Part shown: piece after piece, positions 10,956 through 60,340 of the stretch
Position numbering within the stretch: position 1 is the first letter of the stretch
Layout of the letters: every line of letters starts with the position of its first letter
Source: Synechococcus sp. M16CYN
Lineage (GTDB): Bacteria; Cyanobacteriota; Cyanobacteriia; PCC-6307; Cyanobiaceae
Direction: 5' to 3'
Assembly (NCBI RefSeq): GCF_040371545.1
Contig: NZ_AP029048.1
Coordinates: 310,001-374,000, forward strand
Length of the DNA: 64,000 nt
The notes under the pieces: generated by a model
What the model was told of the DNA's origin: nothing
What the model saw: only the letters and a program-made list of their open reading frames with translations
Databases searched by the model: none
Program-made: the position numbers and the translations under genes

Positions 10956-11480
10956 ATGCCGTTCCTGATTGCCATGGATCTCCTGGCTGGTAGTCAGGTG
11001 CCATTTCGGTATGACGTCCAGCCGCTTTCGGATCCAATTCCCCTTGAAATAAGTCACCAGCGGGTAAGGAATTTAGATCCTGTAGCACGCGCCACTGAGC
11101 TTGCATCCAGCCTTTCACGTCAATGGTGTGGAGCGTTTCAAACTTTTGATGGCAGTCCTGCAGTCAATGTGACACTGGGTCTAACTTCGCTTAAGGCGAT
11201 CGGCCAGATGGTTGACCTTAGAGGGGAAATAACCGTTGGATCCGTCACCACTCCGATTCAGGGCAACTTGCATGCGAAGTCAGATCAGCTTGATTTGATT
11301 CCCTTGGGCAATCCGCTCATTATGGGTGTTGAACCAGGCGGTATCTTTCTTGGCTTACAAGGCTTCAACCTAATGGGGTGGCAATCTCCGCGCTTAGCCA
11401 AGGCCCTTGATCCCAGCACCAAGCTGGGCGGCCGTTTGGAACTAGCCGATTCGTGTCAAACAGAGATGCCAACCAAATAG
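10956..11480 (+). CDS. Hypothetical protein divergent from thiG
   Basis: A product of about 174 residues if it starts at ATG 10956; a GTG at 10929 is also open. The N-terminus has a weak hydrophobic stretch. The remainder looks like a small beta-rich fold with many short strands (FDGSPAVNVTLGLTSL, MVDLRGEITVGS, GGIFLGLQGF) and contains two Cys (WCGAFQ and DSCQTE). I cannot assign a family, though it has the look of a conserved cyanobacterial protein. Divergent placement a few tens of bases from thiG may mean a shared promoter region. Confidence 0.7.
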   Translation: MPFLIAMDLLAGSQVPFRYDVQPLSDPIPLEISHQRVRNLDPVARATELASSLSRQWCGAFQTFDGSPAVNVTLGLTSLKAIGQMVDLRGEITVGSVTTPIQGNLHAKSDQLDLIPLGNPLIMGVEPGGIFLGLQGFNLMGWQSPRLAKALDPSTKLGGRLELADSCQTEMPTK

Positions 11481-27697: not shown

Positions 27698-29482
27698 TCA
27701 CTGTCCGTAAGCTCGACGACACTTGTCGCCGCCTAGTCCAAAACAAGCGTGAACTACCTGAAGGGCTTTGATACCGTCATCTTCCGCTACTACACAGCTT
27801 GTCCGGATTTCACTGGTAGCAATCAGGCCTATGTTGATGTTAGCATCAGCAAGAGCTCGGAACATGCGCCCGGCGGTGCCAGCCTTAGCAGGCATTCCAG
27901 CACCAACAGCACTAACGCGCGCGATAGCATCACTATCCTCTAGTGAAGCACCAGGCCATTTGGCTAGTAGTGGGGCCAGTGCAACGTCAGCTCGGACACG
28001 GTCGTTTTTACTCAGGATGAAGCTAATGTCGCGCGATCCATCGGCGTGTTGACGCTCAGATTGTACAATCGCTTCTAAGCTGATGCGGTTGTCTGCGAGA
28101 GATGAACAGAGAGCGGCGGCGGTTCCAGGTCGATCGGGCACATGGTGCACGGATAGCTGCACCTGATCGCGGTCTAGGGCAACACCGCGCACCTCCGGTT
28201 CGTCCTCTCCGCTGAGTGGCGGGTTGACAACCACTTGAGAATCCTCAACTTCGAAAGCGTCCCGGACGGCCTGGAGTGCTTTGCGCCCAGCACTTGCCGC
28301 AATCACGCAGCTCACTTTCACTTCGCTGGTGGCTATTAGACGCAAATTGATTCCTTGCTGGTATAGACAAGTGAACAAACTCGCTGCGATTCCTGGACGG
28401 CCCATGATTCCTGCACCGCTGATGCTTAGCTTGGTGAATCCACCTTCGGTAGCGAGCTCACCGCCTAAGTTAGCGATAACGCTTTGGCTTACCTGACTGG
28501 CAAGATCCAAGTCGCTTTCGTCTACCGTGAAAGTTATGTCGTTACTTCCGCCTCGGTGGGTTGCCTGAATAATCAGGTCCACATTAATTCCTGCTTCTGC
28601 GAGAGTTTCAAATAGGCGGGCAGCAATTCCGGGTTTATCTGGAATATGTGATAACGCCAAAATAGCCTGACTTTCTACCTGCTCCACCCCGTCCACCGGA
28701 CTACCTAGTTCTAGGCCTCCATGGCCAACTGGTCGAGCCGTTTGGCTAGTGAGCTGTGTGCCCGGATCATCGCTCCAACTAGAACGTACCACTAAATTAA
28801 CTCCATAGTTCCTGGCAATTTCGACAGCGCGGGGGTGCAAGACTGAGGCGCCAAGACTGGCTAGTTCGAGCATTTCATCACAGCTAATTTTCTCCATCAA
28901 TTGGGCATCGCTCACTTTGCGTGGATCGGTACTGAGTACGCCAGGCACATCGGTATAGATCTCGCAAACATCGGCATTAAGTGCAGCTGCCAGGGCTACT
29001 GCGGAGGTATCGGATCCACCTCTTCCTAGGGTGGTGATCTCGCTGATCCCATCACTACTTTGACTGGTACCTTGGAAGCCTGCTACTACTACTACCTTTC
29101 CCTCTTGCAAACGAGTGATGATCCGGTCAGTACGTATTTCAAGGATGCGGGCACGGCCATGGGTAGACTCGGTGGCGATGCCTACCTGAGGACCCGTCAT
29201 CGAAACGGCAGCAACGCCCTGACTATGTAGAGCCATCGCGAGTAAAGCAATAGATACTTGTTCACCACTTGCCAGCAACATATCCATCTCTCGTTGTGGT
29301 GGCGTGGCATTAATTTCATTGGCGAGCTCGATTATCTCATCAGTTGTGTGTCCCATAGCGGAGACTACCACCACTAAGTCATCCCCGTCTTCGCGACAGC
29401 GAGCGACTCGCTGCGCTACAGCTCGGATGCGCTCGACACTACCAACGGAGGTACCGCCAAACTTCTGCACCAGCAGGACCAT
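27698..29482 (-). CDS. lysC: Aspartate kinase with duplicated ACT regulatory domains
   Basis: Phosphorylates aspartate, the entry to lysine/threonine/methionine synthesis. 594 residues: a kinase domain starting VQKFGGTSVGS, then two tandem pairs of ACT domains (repeats beginning LSHIPDKPGIAARLF and VHHVPDRPGTAAALC, each followed by a SEVK/SEIR-type ACT). Four ACT modules make it longer than the usual 400-450-residue enzyme, a form known in cyanobacteria. Feedback control by lysine/threonine is expected from the family. ATG 29482. Confidence 0.96.
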   Translation of the reverse strand: MVLLVQKFGGTSVGSVERIRAVAQRVARCREDGDDLVVVVSAMGHTTDEIIELANEINATPPQREMDMLLASGEQVSIALLAMALHSQGVAAVSMTGPQVGIATESTHGRARILEIRTDRIITRLQEGKVVVVAGFQGTSQSSDGISEITTLGRGGSDTSAVALAAALNADVCEIYTDVPGVLSTDPRKVSDAQLMEKISCDEMLELASLGASVLHPRAVEIARNYGVNLVVRSSWSDDPGTQLTSQTARPVGHGGLELGSPVDGVEQVESQAILALSHIPDKPGIAARLFETLAEAGINVDLIIQATHRGGSNDITFTVDESDLDLASQVSQSVIANLGGELATEGGFTKLSISGAGIMGRPGIAASLFTCLYQQGINLRLIATSEVKVSCVIAASAGRKALQAVRDAFEVEDSQVVVNPPLSGEDEPEVRGVALDRDQVQLSVHHVPDRPGTAAALCSSLADNRISLEAIVQSERQHADGSRDISFILSKNDRVRADVALAPLLAKWPGASLEDSDAIARVSAVGAGMPAKAGTAGRMFRALADANINIGLIATSEIRTSCVVAEDDGIKALQVVHACFGLGGDKCRRAYGQ

Positions 29483-30218
29483 TTCAGCCCTCTTCTACGG
29501 CAAGGTATTATCTCATTGCATGTCTGGGTGTACAACCAGCAACGTTTTGCTCATTCACAAGAGAGGTTGCCGGGCAGCAAATAAATTGCATTAATTATTT
29601 GCTAGAAATCGCAATAAGAATACAAGTTATATAGTATTTACCGTTATTTTTTGACTCTGATTTGCGAGAAATTTGATTATTTTAGTCAAATTTCTCGCAG
29701 TTCCAACCACATCTATGCTAAACGTTGCAAACAGCAAAGTTTAGCCAACAAAGGCTGTTAAGTTTGTGTGCTACTAATTAACCAGCCCTCTCTATGATAA
29801 ATTACTTACCCTGAGAGACTATTTTAATTATTAAACCAAATATTAAGTTGTATCGTTTGAGCAGTAGATGATTGTAACTAATGTTATTAGAAACGGTGGA
29901 CGTTTGACCAAGCCTAGAGTAAATAATCAGCGCTTAATATTTAGTTCTTATACAAATCAATGGCTCTATAAAACAATGTTTAGTCATAAAACCTTAGAAA
30001 CTAGATTAAGACTTTAGGGCTTAATTATTCTAAAACTACAATCAGATCTTGTGCACCCCTGTGTGCCCGTATCCTAAATATATATGTTTTAATTCATTAA
30101 ATTTGACATCTTGTGAACTATTAAGCTGGGGACCAGGCCGACTAGGATGGTTGGGGTACACCTGAATATGGATTAGCTTCAGCTTTAATGGCGGCTCAAG
30201 TGTTGGTTAGAAACGCAA
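29483..30218. other. AT-rich spacer between holA and lysC
   Basis: 736 bases with no defensible gene. It contains the 14 bp perfect inverted repeat at 29663-29699 and a smaller one nearby (GCTAAAC 29717-29723 / GTTTAGC 29739-29745). The lysC promoter should lie in its lower end. Confidence 0.5.
29663..29699. repeat. Perfect 14 bp inverted repeat, 9 nt loop
   Basis: TGCGAGAAATTTGA, then TTATTTTAG, then its exact reverse complement. It lies about 180 bases before the lysC start. No T-run follows on either strand, which argues against a standard terminator. Could be an operator, an RNA hairpin in the lysC leader, or a member of the hairpin group noted elsewhere in this window. Confidence 0.75.
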
Positions 30219-31184
30219 TCAACCCAGTAACCCATCGCGAAACGCGTCACCCGGGATGGCGCCTCGTTTAAGTCTGGCTTCCACCTCTAGCAACCGTCCC
30301 AACAGGGACAAGAACGCTTTGGGTGGTCTGCCTTGTAGTTGCTTGCGCATCACATAGATTCGTTTGGGATTGCTGATGCCGGCGGCTTTGGCAATTACGC
30401 CAACATCATGCTCCCCATGTTGTTCCAATAAGCTCACCCAAAGCCAGCCTCGAACCTGCCCGGTTAGGGTGGCGATGATACGCAAAGCTGATTCACCGGT
30501 ATCAATAAGAGCATCCCAACCAGCGATGGCTTCCCCGGGGTCCTCATCCAAAATGGCGTCACCCACCGCGAGAATGTTGCTAGCCGTGCCTTCTACGAGC
30601 TCTTTAACGAGGTCTGCACTAATCCTAGTGGCGCGTAAGGAGAGCTTATGCAGCTCTGACTCCAACCTAATGCTGTCGGTTCCAATGGAGTCCACCAAGA
30701 TATCAACGGCGTCATACTCCAGCTCGAGCGATAGTGCATCTGCGGTGCGCTGGACTAATTGCCTTTGTCCAGGACCATCCCAAGCGGCTGGCAATAGAAA
30801 ACTCTGCTCAAGATCCAGCCCCTGTTTAATTCTCTTTTGAACTGCTTTTGTTGTGCGTAGCCGACCGTCTGGTTTGGCAGAATTTACTAATACGAGATGA
30901 CTGGTTTCGGGTATGAGATCGAGCGCGGCTTCGAAGCGATCGGTGAGTTCACTGGGACAGTCGTTACAAAATGGGCTGCGTTGCAGCAATACCAGCCTCT
31001 CTCCGGCTGCGAAGGGGGGGGTTCGTGCCTCTTCTAAGGATTGAGCGGCTTGGTCTGTCTCGGCTCCATCGAGGCGGCTGAGGTTGAGGCTGTTCCAGTT
31101 AGGATCTACGAGACGGCTTATGAGGCTGTCAATAGCCCGGTCACGCGCTGCGACATCATCTCCCCAGATCAGATGAATGGGCAT
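30219..31184 (-). CDS. holA: DNA polymerase III delta subunit
   Basis: Clamp-loader wrench that opens the sliding clamp; 321 residues from ATG 31184. Features fit HolA: an N-terminal domain opening with PIHLIWGDD, VLVNSAKPDGRLRTTK in the middle, and C-terminal helices with ISNPKRIYVMRKQLQG. Walker motifs are degenerate, as usual for delta. It diverges from cobH with about 9 bases between start codons, so promoters must overlap the opposite coding region. Confidence 0.88.
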   Translation of the reverse strand: MPIHLIWGDDVAARDRAIDSLISRLVDPNWNSLNLSRLDGAETDQAAQSLEEARTPPFAAGERLVLLQRSPFCNDCPSELTDRFEAALDLIPETSHLVLVNSAKPDGRLRTTKAVQKRIKQGLDLEQSFLLPAAWDGPGQRQLVQRTADALSLELEYDAVDILVDSIGTDSIRLESELHKLSLRATRISADLVKELVEGTASNILAVGDAILDEDPGEAIAGWDALIDTGESALRIIATLTGQVRGWLWVSLLEQHGEHDVGVIAKAAGISNPKRIYVMRKQLQGRPPKAFLSLLGRLLEVEARLKRGAIPGDAFRDGLLG

Positions 31185-31193
31185 AAATCTACG

Positions 31194-31841
31194 ATGACTA
31201 GGATGGCCCAAGAACACCCGATTTTTGACGAGAGCATCCGTAGAATCCGAGTGTTGCTCAGTGATACCGGCTTGGAGTCTTTAGAGCAACAGGTACTGGA
31301 GCGTTTAGTACACAGCAGTGGTGATCCTGCAATAGCTCAATTACTACGGTTTAGTCCAGGAGCTTGCAGGGTAGGAGTCGATGCCCTGAGGTCTGGTGCC
31401 ATGATCCTAACGGACACCGCGATGGCGATGGCGGCTGTACTTCCAATGGCTAGGCGAACCTTGAAGGTTCCGGTGCGAACAGTGCTCGAGTGGGCACCAG
31501 CTCAGGCCCCCTCTGGATCAACTCGAACAGCGATGGGACTGTTGTCGGCTTGGCGGGAACTTGCCACTATGGGACCAGCCCCCATAGTACTAATCGGTAG
31601 TGCTCCAACAGCACTGCAAGTGCTGTTGGAGCAGGTGGATGCTGGTCAACCTGCGCCAAGTCTGGTGATTGGCATGCCAGTAGGATTCGTTAAAGTGACC
31701 GAAAGCAAACATCGCCTAGCTGGAAGCGGCCTAGCGCAAATTCGGCTAGAGGGCACCCGTGGCGGTGCGGGTTTGGTAGCCGCTGTAATCAATGCTTTAC
31801 TAAGGGCGGCTGTAGTCTCAGATCAAGACCTTGCCAACTAA
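31194..31841 (+). CDS. cobH: Precorrin-8X methylmutase
   Basis: Moves a methyl group within the corrin ring to give hydrogenobyrinate, part of cobalamin (or pseudocobalamin) synthesis. About 215 residues. The catalytic His is in RLVHSSGD (about residue 40), followed by LLRFSPGA and later the conserved MPVGFVKVTESK and TRGGAGLVAA blocks. The open frame extends back into holA antisense, so ATG 31194 (or 31203) is preferred. The last 53 bases overlap the end of tilS on the other strand. Confidence 0.93.
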   Translation: MTRMAQEHPIFDESIRRIRVLLSDTGLESLEQQVLERLVHSSGDPAIAQLLRFSPGACRVGVDALRSGAMILTDTAMAMAAVLPMARRTLKVPVRTVLEWAPAQAPSGSTRTAMGLLSAWRELATMGPAPIVLIGSAPTALQVLLEQVDAGQPAPSLVIGMPVGFVKVTESKHRLAGSGLAQIRLEGTRGGAGLVAAVINALLRAAVVSDQDLAN

Positions 31842-45859: not shown

Positions 45860-48145
45860 TCAGACTGTGAGGGTAAAAATATCAGCGGAATTTTCCTCGG
45901 CAATTGCTGTAACTGTCTTACCAGTAATCTCTACAATATTAGCAATTGTGTGTCTAATCTTTGCATGAACGATATAGGAACTGTCGTTATATATAAAGCC
46001 AGCCACATTATTATCTAAGAATGAGGGAGCAAGACTAAATATGACAGTGGCAATGTCAAAAGACGATGCTCCAGCAATTCTAGCCGCGAGAGTACCAGTT
46101 GCCATCCCATTTAAGAATTGATTGCTTACATTACTAGTCACAGCTGCGTCGTTTGTAGTAGCCCCGTCATCATGCGTGTCAAAACTAATGACATCGTCGT
46201 CAGCACTTTTCCAATCAGTAATCGCATCAGTTGTAGCTGGGGTCGAAGTGTTGAGTATGTTGTAAGTAAACGTATCATTACCGCTACCACCAATCAACAC
46301 GTCAGCACCAGTACCACCGATCAACACGTCAGCACCGGCGTTACCAATCAGGGTGTCGTTGACTCCATTGAGCCCTATAATGACGTCGTCCCAAGCAGAG
46401 CCACCCAGAGTTGTGGCTGTACCTGCAATATGGCTAATGGTGAAACCTTGGATTCCTGAGGCTAGGGCCAAGTCAACTCTACCACTAGCTCCACCAGCAA
46501 CAGCATGGATAGTGGCAGAGCTACTATTCATACCAAGGTTGCTGGTGGCAGAGGTTGCGACAAAGCCATTAGTTGTTGCAGTTGCAGCTGTACTAGAGGT
46601 TCCGACAAGTTGGAAAGCATCGCCAGTTGTCAGGTCTCTCACCGACACTGCGCCGGTATTTCCTTCAATAACAAAGGTATCTGCACCATCTCCGCCAGTC
46701 AGATCATCACCGTCTCCATCAGCGCCTGTGTAGAGAACGTCCGCTCCACTACCACCAATGAGGATGTCGCCAGCATTAGCATCGTCACTACCGTGAATAG
46801 TTATTCCGTTTGTGTATGCTGAAGCATTAACAGTGACGCTATTGCCGTTTGAGTAAAGATTATTTAGTTCAATAGTGGTAAAACCCGCTGCTTGAGCATT
46901 TGAACCAAGAGTTATTGACATATCATTTGCGCCATCAGTATCAGTGATACTAAGTGTCTCTATTGCAGTTACATTTTTGAAGCTTAGGTCAGTGATAGTG
47001 CCATTGCTATCATCTATATCTGTGATCAGAAGTACGTCTGTACCTGCGTCGCCTTTTAAGGTATTCAAGGTGTCAAGAGATCCTAACATTCCGGCCGTAA
47101 TGCTCAAAGTATCTGCATCTACACCACCGTAAATAAGGTTATTCCCACCTTGAACGGCAATAAAGTCGGCTCCTGCTTGAGCCGAAATAGTGTCGTTGCC
47201 GTCACCGGAGAGAATTGAGTCAGCGCCAGCGCCGCCCGTGATGCTTTCCGCACCGATACCTCCGATAATGGTATCAGAGCCTCCACCACCCGCGATCGTG
47301 TTTTCGCCCGAACCTGTTACCGCGATCTTATCGTTACCCGCGTCAGCTGACACGCTCAGGGCGGCTGGGCCGGTTAAACGGATCAAATCATCACCCTTGC
47401 CGCCGAATATTGTGGTGTCCGTGGCAATCGCAGAGATAATGTCAATAACGTCGTTTTCCGAACCACCCATTACGAAGGTATTAGCCAGTGTACCCGCGTT
47501 AATAGTGATGGTATCACTATTACTATCCCCGCGAATTATACTGGACGTGATGTCACCAGTCACGGTGATAACATCGTTCTGTTTGCCACCATAGATTGTA
47601 GAAGCGTTAAGAGTTGCGGTAACGGCGATACTGTCGTCTCCAGAGCCACCGTTAATGGTTGATTTTGTCGTTGCACTACCGTTAACGGTAATCGTGTCGT
47701 TGCTGGGGCCGCCTGTTAGTTTTGCCGATTCGGCTACATGACTGACCAAGATCCAGTCGGTGCCGTCTGCACCTGCAACGCTGCCCACTAAGCCCTGGAA
47801 TTTCGCGATATCTGCTCCTCTGCCTAGGTTAATATCTGCGTTAGTCAGGTGATCAGAGAAACTGATGCTATCGTTCCCGTCACCTCCAGCGAATTTAATC
47901 TTATCACAAGCACCCACCGCTATAATGGTATCATCGCCGTCTAGTCCTTCAATCTCAAGGGCATTTCCAGTGATGGAGGCGAGGTCATCAAGCCCTGTGC
48001 CGAGCATGGTCGTATAGTCAGTGCTGGCATGGCCGGGTATGGTAAGGAAAGTCACCTGGTTTTGCACACGAAAAGCGGCCGGTGGATGGTAGAAGCTCAA
48101 GGTACGCTTCGGCCAAGACTGGTAACTAGTTTTCGACCGGGCCAA
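45860..48145 (-). CDS. RTX-type calcium-binding exoprotein
   Basis: Up to 761 residues of acidic, Gly/Asp-rich sequence. Many RTX nonapeptides of the GGxGxDxUx kind are visible (GGSGDDSIA, GGKGDDLIR, GGAGADSIL, GGTGADVLI, GGSGNDTFT), arranged in several blocks and separated by Thr/Ser-rich beta segments. Such repeats fold into calcium-filled beta-rolls outside the cell. The C-terminus (SADIFTLTV) resembles type I secretion signals. No catalytic domain was recognised, so an adhesin or S-layer-like role is plausible. The true start is uncertain: the frame opens at TTG 48145, but the first 40 residues do not look like RTX, and later GTG codons are possible. No type I transporter genes are in the window. 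Confidence 0.85.
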   Translation of the reverse strand: MARSKTSYQSWPKRTLSFYHPPAAFRVQNQVTFLTIPGHASTDYTTMLGTGLDDLASITGNALEIEGLDGDDTIIAVGACDKIKFAGGDGNDSISFSDHLTNADINLGRGADIAKFQGLVGSVAGADGTDWILVSHVAESAKLTGGPSNDTITVNGSATTKSTINGGSGDDSIAVTATLNASTIYGGKQNDVITVTGDITSSIIRGDSNSDTITINAGTLANTFVMGGSENDVIDIISAIATDTTIFGGKGDDLIRLTGPAALSVSADAGNDKIAVTGSGENTIAGGGGSDTIIGGIGAESITGGAGADSILSGDGNDTISAQAGADFIAVQGGNNLIYGGVDADTLSITAGMLGSLDTLNTLKGDAGTDVLLITDIDDSNGTITDLSFKNVTAIETLSITDTDGANDMSITLGSNAQAAGFTTIELNNLYSNGNSVTVNASAYTNGITIHGSDDANAGDILIGGSGADVLYTGADGDGDDLTGGDGADTFVIEGNTGAVSVRDLTTGDAFQLVGTSSTAATATTNGFVATSATSNLGMNSSSATIHAVAGGASGRVDLALASGIQGFTISHIAGTATTLGGSAWDDVIIGLNGVNDTLIGNAGADVLIGGTGADVLIGGSGNDTFTYNILNTSTPATTDAITDWKSADDDVISFDTHDDGATTNDAAVTSNVSNQFLNGMATGTLAARIAGASSFDIATVIFSLAPSFLDNNVAGFIYNDSSYIVHAKIRHTIANIVEITGKTVTAIAEENSADIFTLTV
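46287..46340. repeat. Near-identical 27 bp tandem repeat inside the RTX gene
   Basis: Two 27 bp units (46287-46313 and 46314-46340) differ at only a few positions and encode successive double RTX nonapeptides around GGTGADVLI. This recent duplication shows how the repeat array grows by slippage. Confidence 0.75.
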
Positions 48146-48507: not shown

Positions 48508-51327
48508 ATGCTTAAGTTTTTACTAGGTGATCTAAACGCTCGCAAATTAAAGCGTTATCAACCGATTATTTCTGATATTCAATTATTGGAGGATGAGATA
48601 TCTTTGCTGAGCGACGACGATCTACGTCGTCGCTCAGCAGAATTTCGTCAAAAACTAAACAATGCCAATAATTTTGAAAATCAAAGACTAATTCTTAACC
48701 AACTTCTACCGGATGCTTTTGCCGTAGTACGGGAGGCTAGCAAGCGTGTGCTGGGGATGCGTCACTTTGATGTGCAATTGATTGGCGGTATAGTATTACA
48801 TGAGGGTCAAATTGCTGAGATGAAAACCGGTGAGGGTAAAACCCTCGTAGCCACATTACCTAGCTATCTCAATGCCCTCACTGGACGCGGTGTACACATA
48901 GTAACTGTAAATGACTACCTTGCCCGACGTGATGCTGAATGGATGGGCCAGGTACATCGCTTCTTGGGCTTATCTGTGGGCTTAATTCAGCAAGATATGC
49001 GACCAGAAGAACGTCGCCGTAATTATGCTTGCGATATCACTTATGCTACAAATTCTGAACTGGGCTTCGACTATTTGCGGGACAACATGGCCTCAGACAT
49101 TAATGAGGCAGTGCAACGTGATTTTCAATATTGCGTGATTGATGAGGTGGACTCGATCCTAATCGACGAAGCCCGCACACCTCTAATTATTTCTGGCCAG
49201 GTAGAGCGACCTCAAGAGAAGTATCAACAGGCAGCTCGGTTGGCTGAAATGCTTGAGCGTTGCGCCGAATTGGGTAAGGACGGCATTGATCCGGAGGGGG
49301 ATTATGAAGTCGATGAGAAGCAACGTAGCTGCACCCTCACTGATGAAGGCTTTGCCAAAGCAGAACAAATACTGGGCGTACAAGATTTGTTTAACCCTCA
49401 GGATCCCTGGGCTCATTACATCACCAATGCTCTCAAAGCTAAAGAGCTATTCGTGAAGGATGTGAACTACATAGTTCGTGATAATGAAGCCGTAATTGTA
49501 GATGCATTCACCGGTCGAGTAATGCCAGGACGTCGCTGGAGCGATGGCCAACACCAGGCGATTGAAGCGAAAGAAGTGCTGCCAATTCAACCCGAAACTC
49601 AGACACTTGCGTCGATTACTTACCAGAATTTCTTTTTGCTATATCCGCGTTTGGCCGGGATGACCGGTACTGCAAAAACAGAGGAAGTAGAATTTGAGAA
49701 AATCTACAAACTCCAAACTACGATTGTGCCTACTAACCGAGTTCGGGCACGTCGAGATTGGGCAGATCAAGTCTATAAAACAGAGTCTGCCAAGTGGAGA
49801 GCGGTTGCGATTGAAACGGCCAAAATCCATCACAAAGGACGCCCGGTCTTGGTGGGCACTACGTCAGTTGAAAAGAGCGAGCTGCTCAGCACCTTGTTAA
49901 CAGAGCAGGGGGTTCCTCACAACTTGCTGAACGCTAAGCCTGAGAATGTAGAACGTGAGTCGGAGATTGTGGCCCAGGCAGGTCGTGCCGGTGCTGTTAC
50001 TATTGCCACCAATATGGCTGGCCGGGGCACAGATATTATTCTTGGTGGCAACAGCGATTATATGGCTCGCCTCAAACTGCGAGAGGTACTGCTGTCGCGG
50101 CTGGTGAAGCTTGAAGAAGAGCATCGGCTCCCTGCCTTCCGGCAACAACGCAACTTCGCTGACGGTTTTTCTAATTGGGAGGCGGTACCGACAATAGTGC
50201 GTAAGACCGGTAGTCCCTATCCATGTCGACTTTCAGATAATACAGATCAGATGCTCGGTCAGCTGGCCCGCACTTTAGTCAAAGCGTGGGGAGACCGTAC
50301 ACTCACTGTAATCGAGCTGGAAGAGCGTATTGCAACCGCTGCCGAGAAAGCCCCTACTGATGATACCCAGATTCAGGCTCTACGCGAAGCAATTGCAGCG
50401 GTAAAGGGAGAATACGACACTGTAGTGAAACAGGAGGAGACTAAGGTGCGTGAGGCTGGCGGCCTCCACGTGATCGGTACTGAGCGCCATGAATCACGCC
50501 GAGTAGATAACCAATTACGGGGTCGCGCCGGTCGTCAGGGTGACCCTGGTTCGACACGTTTCTTTCTTTCTCTAGGTGACAACCTGTTGCGTATCTTCGG
50601 TGGCGATCGCGTCGCTGGCTTGATGAACGCTTTTCGCGTTGAGGAAGATATGCCAATCGAGTCGAGGATGTTAACTCGCTCTTTGGAGGGTGCCCAAAAG
50701 AAAGTCGAGACCTACTATTACGACATTCGTAAGCAAGTATTCGAGTATGATGAAGTAATGAATAATCAGCGTCGGGCAGTTTATTCCGAACGCCGTCGCG
50801 TTCTGGATGGTCGCACCCTCAAAAAGCAGGTGATTGGCTACGGTGAACTTACGATGGGAGAAATCGTTGAGGCCTATGTAAATCCGGATTTGCCGCCCGA
50901 GGAGTGGGATTTAAATCAGCTGGTAGGTAAGGTAAAAGAATTTATTTATTTGCTTGAAGACCTTACCCCCGACCAAATTCAAGGTTTGGCGATGGAAGAG
51001 TTGAAAGCATTTTTGCAAGAGCAGCTGCGCAATGCTTACGATCTCAAAGAAAGCCAGATCGAGCAACAACGTCCTGGTTTGATGAGAGAAGCTGAGCGTT
51101 TCTTCATTCTCCAACAAATTGACGCCCTTTGGCGTGAACATTTGCAAGCCATGGAAGCCTTGCGTGAGTCCGTCGGTTTGCGTGGATATGGCCAAAAAGA
51201 TCCGCTAATTGAATACAAAAACGAAGGTTATGACATGTTTTTAGAGATGATGACGAATATGCGTCGTAACGTGATTTATTCTATGTTCATGTTCCAGCCG
51301 GCGTCGACGTCGCAGAGTCAAACGTGA
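48508..51327 (+). CDS. secA: SecA, preprotein translocase ATPase
   Basis: 939 residues from ATG 48508, giving the family N-terminus [19 protein letters not shown]; upstream in-frame starts were ignored. Walker A is MKTGEGKT (105-112), followed by [12 protein letters not shown], the [15 protein letters not shown] motif, [10 protein letters not shown] and [14 protein letters not shown] of the second motor domain, and the helical wing/scaffold domains. The C-terminus lacks the zinc-binding Cys cluster seen in E. coli. Drives Sec export across plasma and thylakoid membranes. Confidence 0.98.
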
Positions 51328-52030: not shown

Positions 52031-53484
52031 GTGACTTGGAACCGTTTGGCCATCCGACCAACCATCAAATCCTCGGCTCCGCAAAGGAAGCGAGCGTGTT
52101 CGCGCGCTACAGGTGCACCATAGCCCGCGATGTAGCGCATTAAGGATCGACTCAGGGCGTAAGCCTTACCGCTATAAAAACTTGGCACGTTACCGCCAAT
52201 TCCGAAAACCCGTTCTGGTTCCACGGACACGCCCTTGTTACGCCCCCATAGGTGGATGTCATCCTGTACAGGAGCAATGTGGTGAAGGAACCCGTCGTAA
52301 TGGGTGGGTTCACGCAGTGGTTCCGTGAGTCGTCCTTCTAGCCAAGTGACCACCGCTTTAGGTTCAATGGCCTGTCGTCCGCGGTAATTCACACAGGTGA
52401 GGTCAATCTTAATCAGTTGTTTAAAGCGCAGCCGTCGGATGCACCAGCGCAACATCCGTAGGGTTTTGTAGCAAAGTTGATCGTAGGCCTCAGGTGTGGC
52501 TAGGATTAGGCGTCGCCCATCACAATGATCTACTGTTTTCCCGCCCCCCCACACTTCGAGTAATAATGTGTCCGCTCGCTGGCGAATTAGTTTCCATAAA
52601 CTTGAACTGTAAAAATCATTGAGGAGAGCAGTATCAGCCGCACAGCAATAGAGGCACACTATGCTACGGCAAGGTCTGGTTTTGGTAGCATCGGGCCAAT
52701 GCCAGTAGTGCTTTTTGTGAGAGGTGCTACGTTCTAGCTTTCGTTGTTTCGGCATAGCAAGCTGTTCAAGCTCTGAGGCATCGGGAAAAGTGAGCTGTCT
52801 GGCGGAGAGTTGCAGTCGATTCTTATGCCAACCTTTGTGTAATTCTTCTGGACTAAAATGGCGTTGTAAGTATTTTTGTTGCACTTGATATTGATTACGC
52901 GCAATGTAGTGACGGAGTATTAGAGATTCTTTTGCTAGGCGTAACGGTGTATTACCGATGTCATTTAGTTGATGACCACCATTGCTTTGATTGTTGAAGC
53001 GACTACACCGAGCCCAAGCTCGGTGTAGTCGCTGTGATGTTGATTCAAAAAAATAATAATGCTCCGCTGGTTGACCTGAAATAAGAGGCAAAAACACAAA
53101 TTCCTCAAAATTCACTGCATTAGCACCAGTCGCTGCCAATCGACTAATCGCTTGTTGTAAAGTTTCGCCACTATGAGGACTATGTAACCATTCATCAGTA
53201 TCTAAGTGCACCACCCAATCATGATCGAGTGACTCAATTACAGCAGCTTTAGCAGCAAGCTGCTGGTCAAGGCTAAAATATCCCAACCATTTCATAGTAC
53301 TCACTGCTAATACGCCATGATTCAGATAGGCATTGGCAACAGCCTGTGTCTCATCACTAGAGCTATGGTCGATCACTACCAATTCAAGTCCTTCACTAAT
53401 CCATACCGGCAGATGCCGTTTCAGTAAATCTGCTTCGTTACGGCAAGCAACTACCGCAGCACAACGCAACAAAGCAAAGCTCAC
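52009..53484 (-). CDS. Two-domain glycosyltransferase: GT2 N-terminus, GT31-like C-terminus
   Basis: 491 residues, GTG start overlapping the cysE stop (GTGA). The N-terminal half is a GT2-type domain of the glycan-modifying Glyco_tranf_2_4 kind: [26 protein letters not shown] and a DxD-like HLDTDEWL (95-98). The C-terminal half resembles GT31 beta-galactosyltransferases: [20 protein letters not shown], then IKIDLTCVN where DDD usually stands, [12 protein letters not shown], and EDLMVG at about 471-476. The reduced DDD motif (DLT) leaves doubt about activity of this half. A single polypeptide with both halves might add two sugars in sequence. The GT31 reading is by pattern only. Confidence 0.75.
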
Positions 53485-60296: not shown

Positions 60297-60340
60297 TTCA
60301 ATCTCTAACACCTGTACTGTATCAGGTGTTAGAGATTGAA
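60297..60340. repeat. Perfect 18 bp inverted repeat, 8 nt loop
   Basis: TTCAATCTCTAACACCTG, loop TACTGTAT, exact reverse complement. It lies about 90 bases past the gpx stop (minus strand) and beyond the gyrB region, in a convergent spacer, so a two-way terminator is possible although no T-run follows on either side. It is the longest perfect hairpin I found in the window. Confidence 0.85.

Follow-up and report, generated by a model that had tools for sequence, protein, structure and literature searches.

The perfect hairpin at positions 29663-29699 of the window, the whole stretch of 64,000 nucleotides analysed here, is regarded with moderate confidence as a lineage-specific and nearly neutral inverted repeat in a decaying insert, which would have arisen by template switching during replication and would not be a control element of lysC. 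Taken alone the hairpin matters little, beyond showing that mutation in a single lineage can produce an eye-catching palindrome next to an important gene. The region contains the following features.

27698-29482, minus strand: ORF of 594 aa, aspartate kinase, presumably lysC (name from the original prediction)
29507-29515, minus strand: TGAGATAAT, probable extended −10 element for lysC, conserved across an alignment of 18 upstream regions
29517-30215 (approximate limits), no strand: lineage-specific A+T-rich insert or expansion in the holA-lysC spacer, placed by spacing and alignment breaks
29663-29699, no strand: hairpin of 14 perfect pairs with a 9-nt loop, or, with the inner bases, arms of 17 nt mismatched once around a 3-nt loop
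29717-29745, no strand: second stem-loop, arms of 12 nt mismatched at one position, loop of 5 nt
29750-29790 (approximate limits), minus strand: weak third stem-loop of the same structured block
30219-31217, minus strand: ORF of the upstream neighbour, a holA-like gene, which we take to encode the delta subunit of DNA polymerase III

Structure of the hairpin and adjacent stem-loops

The spacer between lysC and holA, two minus-strand genes, measures 736 nt, as the original prediction had it, and has a G+C content of 36% against 49% for the window. The predicted stem of 14 perfect base pairs with a 9-nt loop was found at exactly 29663-29699 and reads TGCGAGAAATTTGA-TTATTTTAG-TCAAATTTCTCGCA (arm, loop, arm). 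When the inner bases are counted, the arms are 17 nt long and complementary at 16 of 17 positions, around a loop of 3 nt. The odd pair is a G-U wobble on the plus strand, for which reason the plus-strand RNA folds better (−24.0 kcal/mol) than the minus-strand RNA (−18.9 kcal/mol).

Such a hairpin had been called very unlikely in a random spacer of this length, and the simulations agreed. A perfect stem of at least 14 bp (loop 3-15) occurred in one of 6000 first-order spacers of the same composition and in none of 6000 when the hairpin was excluded from the training sequence; an earlier run had given one in 1500 spacers. The hairpin is real and non-random, and chance is a poor explanation. It is true that this is a single stem in one A+T-rich spacer, chosen for standing out, but besides the simulated counts, the 152 kb of long spacers in the genome sample hold eight stems of at least 14 bp where 0.05 were expected, and a chance palindrome is hardly credible.

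The second hairpin that had been noticed shortly beyond the first was located at 29717-29745, with 17 bases in between. The three stem-loops together had a fold z of −4.8 on the minus strand and −5.6 on the plus strand, and the structure excess of the whole spacer was restricted to 29603-29782. After removal of either the hairpin or the block, z was about −1.1 (minus) and 0.6 (plus), much like shuffled sequence. The 12-mer GCTAAACGTTGC of the second hairpin recurs at 29539-29550. As a repeat it was rejected, with 17 genome sites at up to one mismatch and 11 for the reversed control, no clear excess.

Directly after the stem comes GTTCCAACC on the plus strand and AATCAGAGT on the minus strand, and there is no T-run on either, which upholds the earlier argument against a standard terminator. 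An intrinsic terminator was also discarded because the stem, with nine A-T and five G-C pairs, is not G+C-rich, and the hairpin is not among the sites of the terminator scan. What the hairpin has in common with intrinsic terminators is a stable stem-loop between two genes; it differs from them in the missing T-run on both strands, the A+T-rich stem, the 9-nt loop and the lack of conservation.

Because the block folds well on both strands, a role at a transcript end is the main rival explanation. The block at 29663-29790 would then stop the holA transcript or protect its 3′ end, or separate transcription from both sides, ahead of the lysC promoter. Its three stem-loops within about 130 nt, with the z values given above, lie downstream of holA and upstream of the promoter-like element of lysC, and to our knowledge cyanobacteria have no Rho, so that hairpins bear much of the termination. 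Against this role stand the missing T-run, the 520 nt between the holA stop and the hairpin, the lack of a counterpart in relatives, whose spacers are mostly shorter than 104 nt, and the presence of similar hairpins without T-run within genes. On balance a transcript-end role is considered rather unlikely.

Position relative to the probable lysC promoter

The motif TGAGA(n)AAT was conserved in the aligned lysC upstream regions, one A and the AAT being invariant and TGAG nearly so, and it probably serves lysC as the extended −10 of its promoter. The hairpin lies about 150 nt upstream of this −10-like element. Since the element is located on the lysC side of the hairpin, the hairpin would fall outside the likely lysC leader and only read-through from holA would include it. 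A riboswitch or attenuator of the lysC leader, for instance a lysine riboswitch, was rejected as the hairpin is not situated between the predicted promoter and the start codon, read-through from holA being possible.

The only Rfam family found in the window at gathering scores is a tRNA. With an open threshold the best match of the spacer was to a microRNA model (E 0.15), far below its gathering score and rejected as chance-level. An RNA element would likewise account for such a set of three stem-loops, and a small RNA gene of this lineage could be proposed from the stable fold on both strands and from four promoter-like sites nearby, compared with 2.1 expected. Such a gene is quite improbable, given the lack of an Rfam family at a useful score and of conservation in 33 other genomes of the genus.

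The regulatory role that the original prediction implied ahead of lysC is not supported: the hairpin pattern was absent from those 33 genomes (18 near-complete), the spacer is lineage-specific, and the −10-like element separates the hairpin from the gene. Conservation of the stem with compensating changes in relatives had been put forward as a check. With the stem absent from all 33 genomes there are no compensating changes to examine, and such absence is one outcome that had been named as counting against the role.

The spacer is specific to one lineage

The nearest relatives are G006 and G014, with LysC 86% identical. The spacing between holA and lysC was surveyed at 109 loci, from which 23 without a measurable pair and three duplicates were removed to leave 83 distinct relatives. 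The spacer was 35-103 nt long in 74 of these and 261-2059 nt in the other nine. Among the 32 with a LysC identity of at least 70%, it was 42-103 nt in 31 and 842 nt in one, where G006 is counted among the short-spacer loci although its junction is duplicated around an insert. The alignment to relatives breaks at 29518 and 30215, and the extra sequence of about 700 nt is located between the end of holA and the conserved TGAGA(n)AAT.

In 58 other genomes no homologue of the spacer was found beyond chance-level matches; the best one (E 0.009) spans 20 nt clear of the hairpin, and another in G010 (E 0.14) overlaps one hairpin arm. No second copy of spacer or hairpin was present elsewhere in the own genome, phage and plasmid DNA gave chance-level matches only (E 0.7-0.8), and the exact hairpin pattern occurred zero times in viral contigs. 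Six-frame pieces of the spacer were compared with Pfam (seven pieces) and PHROGs (six pieces), and the best hits (E 0.1 and 0.72) were rejected. The hairpin and its spacer are specific to one lineage.

The same junction was also interrupted in other genomes. In G006 (L200:8639-11391) it is duplicated as 300-nt direct repeats, 99% identical and 2453 apart, and the insert carries a 401-aa ORF that looks methyltransferase-like from its motifs. The slot in G008 (L048:3280-4124) measures about 842-845 nt and has an ORF on the opposite strand that, as read from its sequence, looks like a methyltransferase. In two loci of Candidatus Synechococcus spongiarum, a sponge symbiont (L129 and L131), holA and lysC are 1936 and 2059 nt apart. 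Insertions seem to have landed repeatedly at the holA-lysC junction.

The hairpin might accordingly be a palindrome from the end, or from close to the end, of an eroded insertion sequence or MITE-like repeat, as the spacer resembles an insert of about 700 nt and the slot received other insertions in G006 (about 2.45 kb) and G008. A mobile-element remnant is nevertheless improbable. No further copy of a repeat family (REP, MITE or IS200/IS605 end) exists in the own genome, no transposase fragment was recognized with Pfam or PHROGs, and no target duplication is evident beside the hairpin. Descent from the G006 or G008 inserts was rejected for lack of similarity beyond chance.

Genome size and gene erosion

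The chromosome is 1,940,073 bases long and is accompanied by another contig of about 17 kb. The genome appears to be that of CregCyn, the reduced symbiont hosted by the dinoflagellate Citharistes regius, reported with a chromosome of 1.94 Mbp and a plasmid of about 17 kbp (PMC11150560). The same source describes CregCyn as sister to clade IV (CC9902, BL107) and its protein repertoire as one quarter to one third below that of free-living kin.

A sample of 864 kb (the window and 40 further stretches) was used for genome statistics. By ORF-based and therefore approximate calls, 20.5% of it is intergenic (G+C 39%), compared to 9.4% in G006, 7.6% in G014 and 10.8% in nine other genomes. Spacers longer than 700 nt numbered 75 in the sample, against nine in 374.8 kb of G006, three in 380 kb of G014 and nine in 360 kb of the nine others.

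Genes are seen to erode in place. The recJ slot (G000:C1:1267300-1269010; L258:7300-9010) is 1.7 kb long, with the same neighbours as in G014, and holds no intact gene; collinear RecJ remnants with stops correspond to residues 124-143, 238-277, 288-326 and 461-573. Of xseA, one weak fragment is left in its place (residues 104-138). Long spacers of this genome can be gene graveyards, the recJ slot being an example. No perfect stem of at least 8 bp was found within the eroded recJ and xseA slots.

Long perfect hairpins in the genome and its relatives

Long perfect hairpins are in excess in the genome sample, genes included. The 864 kb contained 33 perfect stems of at least 12 bp (loop 3-15) compared to nine in 1115 kb of relatives (p 4e-6). 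The window had been picked for its hairpin; without it 28 stems in 800 kb remain, by subtraction. For stems of at least 14 bp the counts were 17 and seven (p 0.007). Stems of at least 12 bp were divided into approximate classes, the hairpin at 31601 lying in an ORF yet being scored as intergenic by the heuristic: spacers longer than 300 nt held 15 in 152 kb (0.55 expected) and none in 55 kb of relatives (p 0.0096), coding sequence 13 in 687 kb and six in 1012 kb of relatives (p 0.013), and short spacers five and three, which is not significant. A T-rich tail was rare among the perfect hairpins of the sample.

The window has five stems of at least 14 bp, three of them within ORFs and one in a convergent spacer. 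The four apart from the hairpin at 29663 are listed here, with presumed ORF names.

31601-31633, no strand: perfect 15-bp hairpin in a cobH-like ORF, same feature class
48605-48639, no strand: perfect 15-bp hairpin in secA, same feature class
52998-53033, no strand: perfect 16-bp hairpin in a glycosyltransferase-like ORF
60297-60340, no strand: perfect 18-bp hairpin in the spacer of convergent genes, without T-run

The hairpins in secA and the cobH-like ORF preserve the reading frame. In secA, the two arms show 2 against 6 differences from relatives; in the cobH-like ORF the arms show 2 against 5 (G014) and 4 against 6 (G006). This unequal change fits template switching, though weakly at an identity of about 75%. 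In several other coding hairpins both arms had changed equally. Within alignable regions the numbers of stems of at least 12 bp were five against two (G014, 155 kb) and one against zero (G006, 101 kb), not a significant difference, and stems of 9-11 bp were no commoner here than in these two relatives.

Fold-back chimeras produce inverted repeats, and the hairpin could be such an artefact of whole-genome amplification or of assembly. If the genome is CregCyn, the DNA sequenced had indeed been amplified, but all CregCyn sequences were recovered in two further amplified cells (PMC11150560). The in-frame hairpins of secA and the cobH-like ORF also argue against an artefact, as do similar hairpins in the g32 genomes. 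The latter presumably derive from cultured strains. An artefact is thought very improbable.

Still longer stems were observed elsewhere. In G000:C1:1480001-1500000, perfect stems of 36 and 23 bp with 5-nt loops (L164:14254-14330 and 11028-11078) lie in A+T-rich non-coding sequence of the own genome, and in G068:C1 (L280), from a member of the same family without xseA, a perfect stem reaches 30 bp, around a 7-nt loop.

Proposed origin of the hairpin

To return to template switching in a decaying insert, about 700 nt would have been gained between holA and the lysC promoter, by entry or by expansion, and their former content would have eroded past recognition. During replication, a nascent strand may have folded back onto itself and used its own sequence close by as a template, so that one or a few steps would have made one arm exactly complementary to the other. 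In the 864-kb sample of this genome such repeats are frequent, probably because there is little selection on spacer DNA and perhaps also through the loss of ExoVII and RecJ, single-strand exonucleases that might remove fold-back intermediates. Judging from the conserved −10-like element, lysC would retain its own promoter downstream of the hairpin. The hairpin itself would have no function.

The hairpin is a perfect, close inverted repeat beyond chance, as expected of a template-switch product. The event itself is inferred from this product, as there is no relative of the spacer to reveal an imperfect ancestor. In E. coli, template switching causes mutations that turn imperfect inverted repeats into perfect palindromes, and in recB mutants it does so at very high rates (PMC6357072). 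These quasipalindrome mutations, at sites in thyA and lacZ, likewise drive short inverted repeats to perfect complementarity and are limited by replication-fork nucleases such as RecBCD; there, unlike here, the imperfect ancestor and the event were observed (PMC6357072). Template switching can also create stems in a single event, as described by Monttinen and Loytynoja (PMC8794818), and the perfect stem found here possibly arose in that way. Their conclusion was drawn from reconstructed histories of rRNA genes in many lineages, ours from over-representation in one genome. The palindromes in nematomorph mitochondria are also perfect inverted repeats inside genes, but they are mitochondrial and far longer, up to 284 bp (PMC6649704).

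Loss of ExoVII and RecJ

Both recJ and xseA have been lost from the present genome. In the first sets, 21 of 23 genomes had xseA, and as many had recJ. Each gene was present in 16 of the 17 near-complete genomes, the present genome being the sole one without either; the other misses were G004 for xseA (65% complete) and G010 for recJ (53% complete). When searched with Pfam, 11 of 12 genomes had the ExoVII large subunit, the present one being the exception. Across the family, xseA had a match in 162 of 200 genomes, the misses listed being the present genome and members of g29, g32 and g36, with 18 more misses. The recJ gene was missing in g32 (3/3 tested) and kept in g29 (3/3) and g36 (1/1). 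According to Table 3 of Dufresne et al. 2005, Prochlorococcus MED4 lacks recJ, xseA and xseB (PMC551534).

In the lineages without xseA, stems of at least 12 bp per Mb amounted to 38 in the present genome, 26 in g32, 25 in g29 and 50 in g36 (33, 5, 2 and 5 stems, small samples), compared to eight (nine stems) in the pooled relatives that keep xseA and recJ. Sets that were not sorted by xseA or recJ status gave 15.5, 0 and 17.9.

ExoI and ExoVII keep quasipalindrome mutations in check in E. coli. We tentatively suggest that fold-back synthesis might go unchecked in reduced picocyanobacteria once ExoVII and RecJ are gone, so that long perfect hairpins fill spacers and genes. The hairpin-rich lineages would then be the symbiont and g32, which lost both genes, and g29 and g36, which lost ExoVII alone. 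This relation is correlative, was derived from the same data and is a lead instead of a finding; it is confounded with genome reduction, symbiosis, base composition and the method of DNA amplification or sequencing. Loss of SbcD was rejected as a cause, as none of 15 genus genomes had a match above the cut-off and its lack is not special to the present genome. In the literature found, no published link between exonuclease loss and hairpins in symbionts or Prochlorococcus came up, which is no proof of absence. If the link is true, gene loss in reduced genomes would leave a visible signature in the spread of perfect hairpins, and it would help to explain the quick origin of long RNA stems in decaying DNA.

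Elsewhere in the window, a 761-aa ORF at 45860-48145 is rich in GGxGxD-like repeats and presumably resembles the RTX-type calcium-binding surface proteins.
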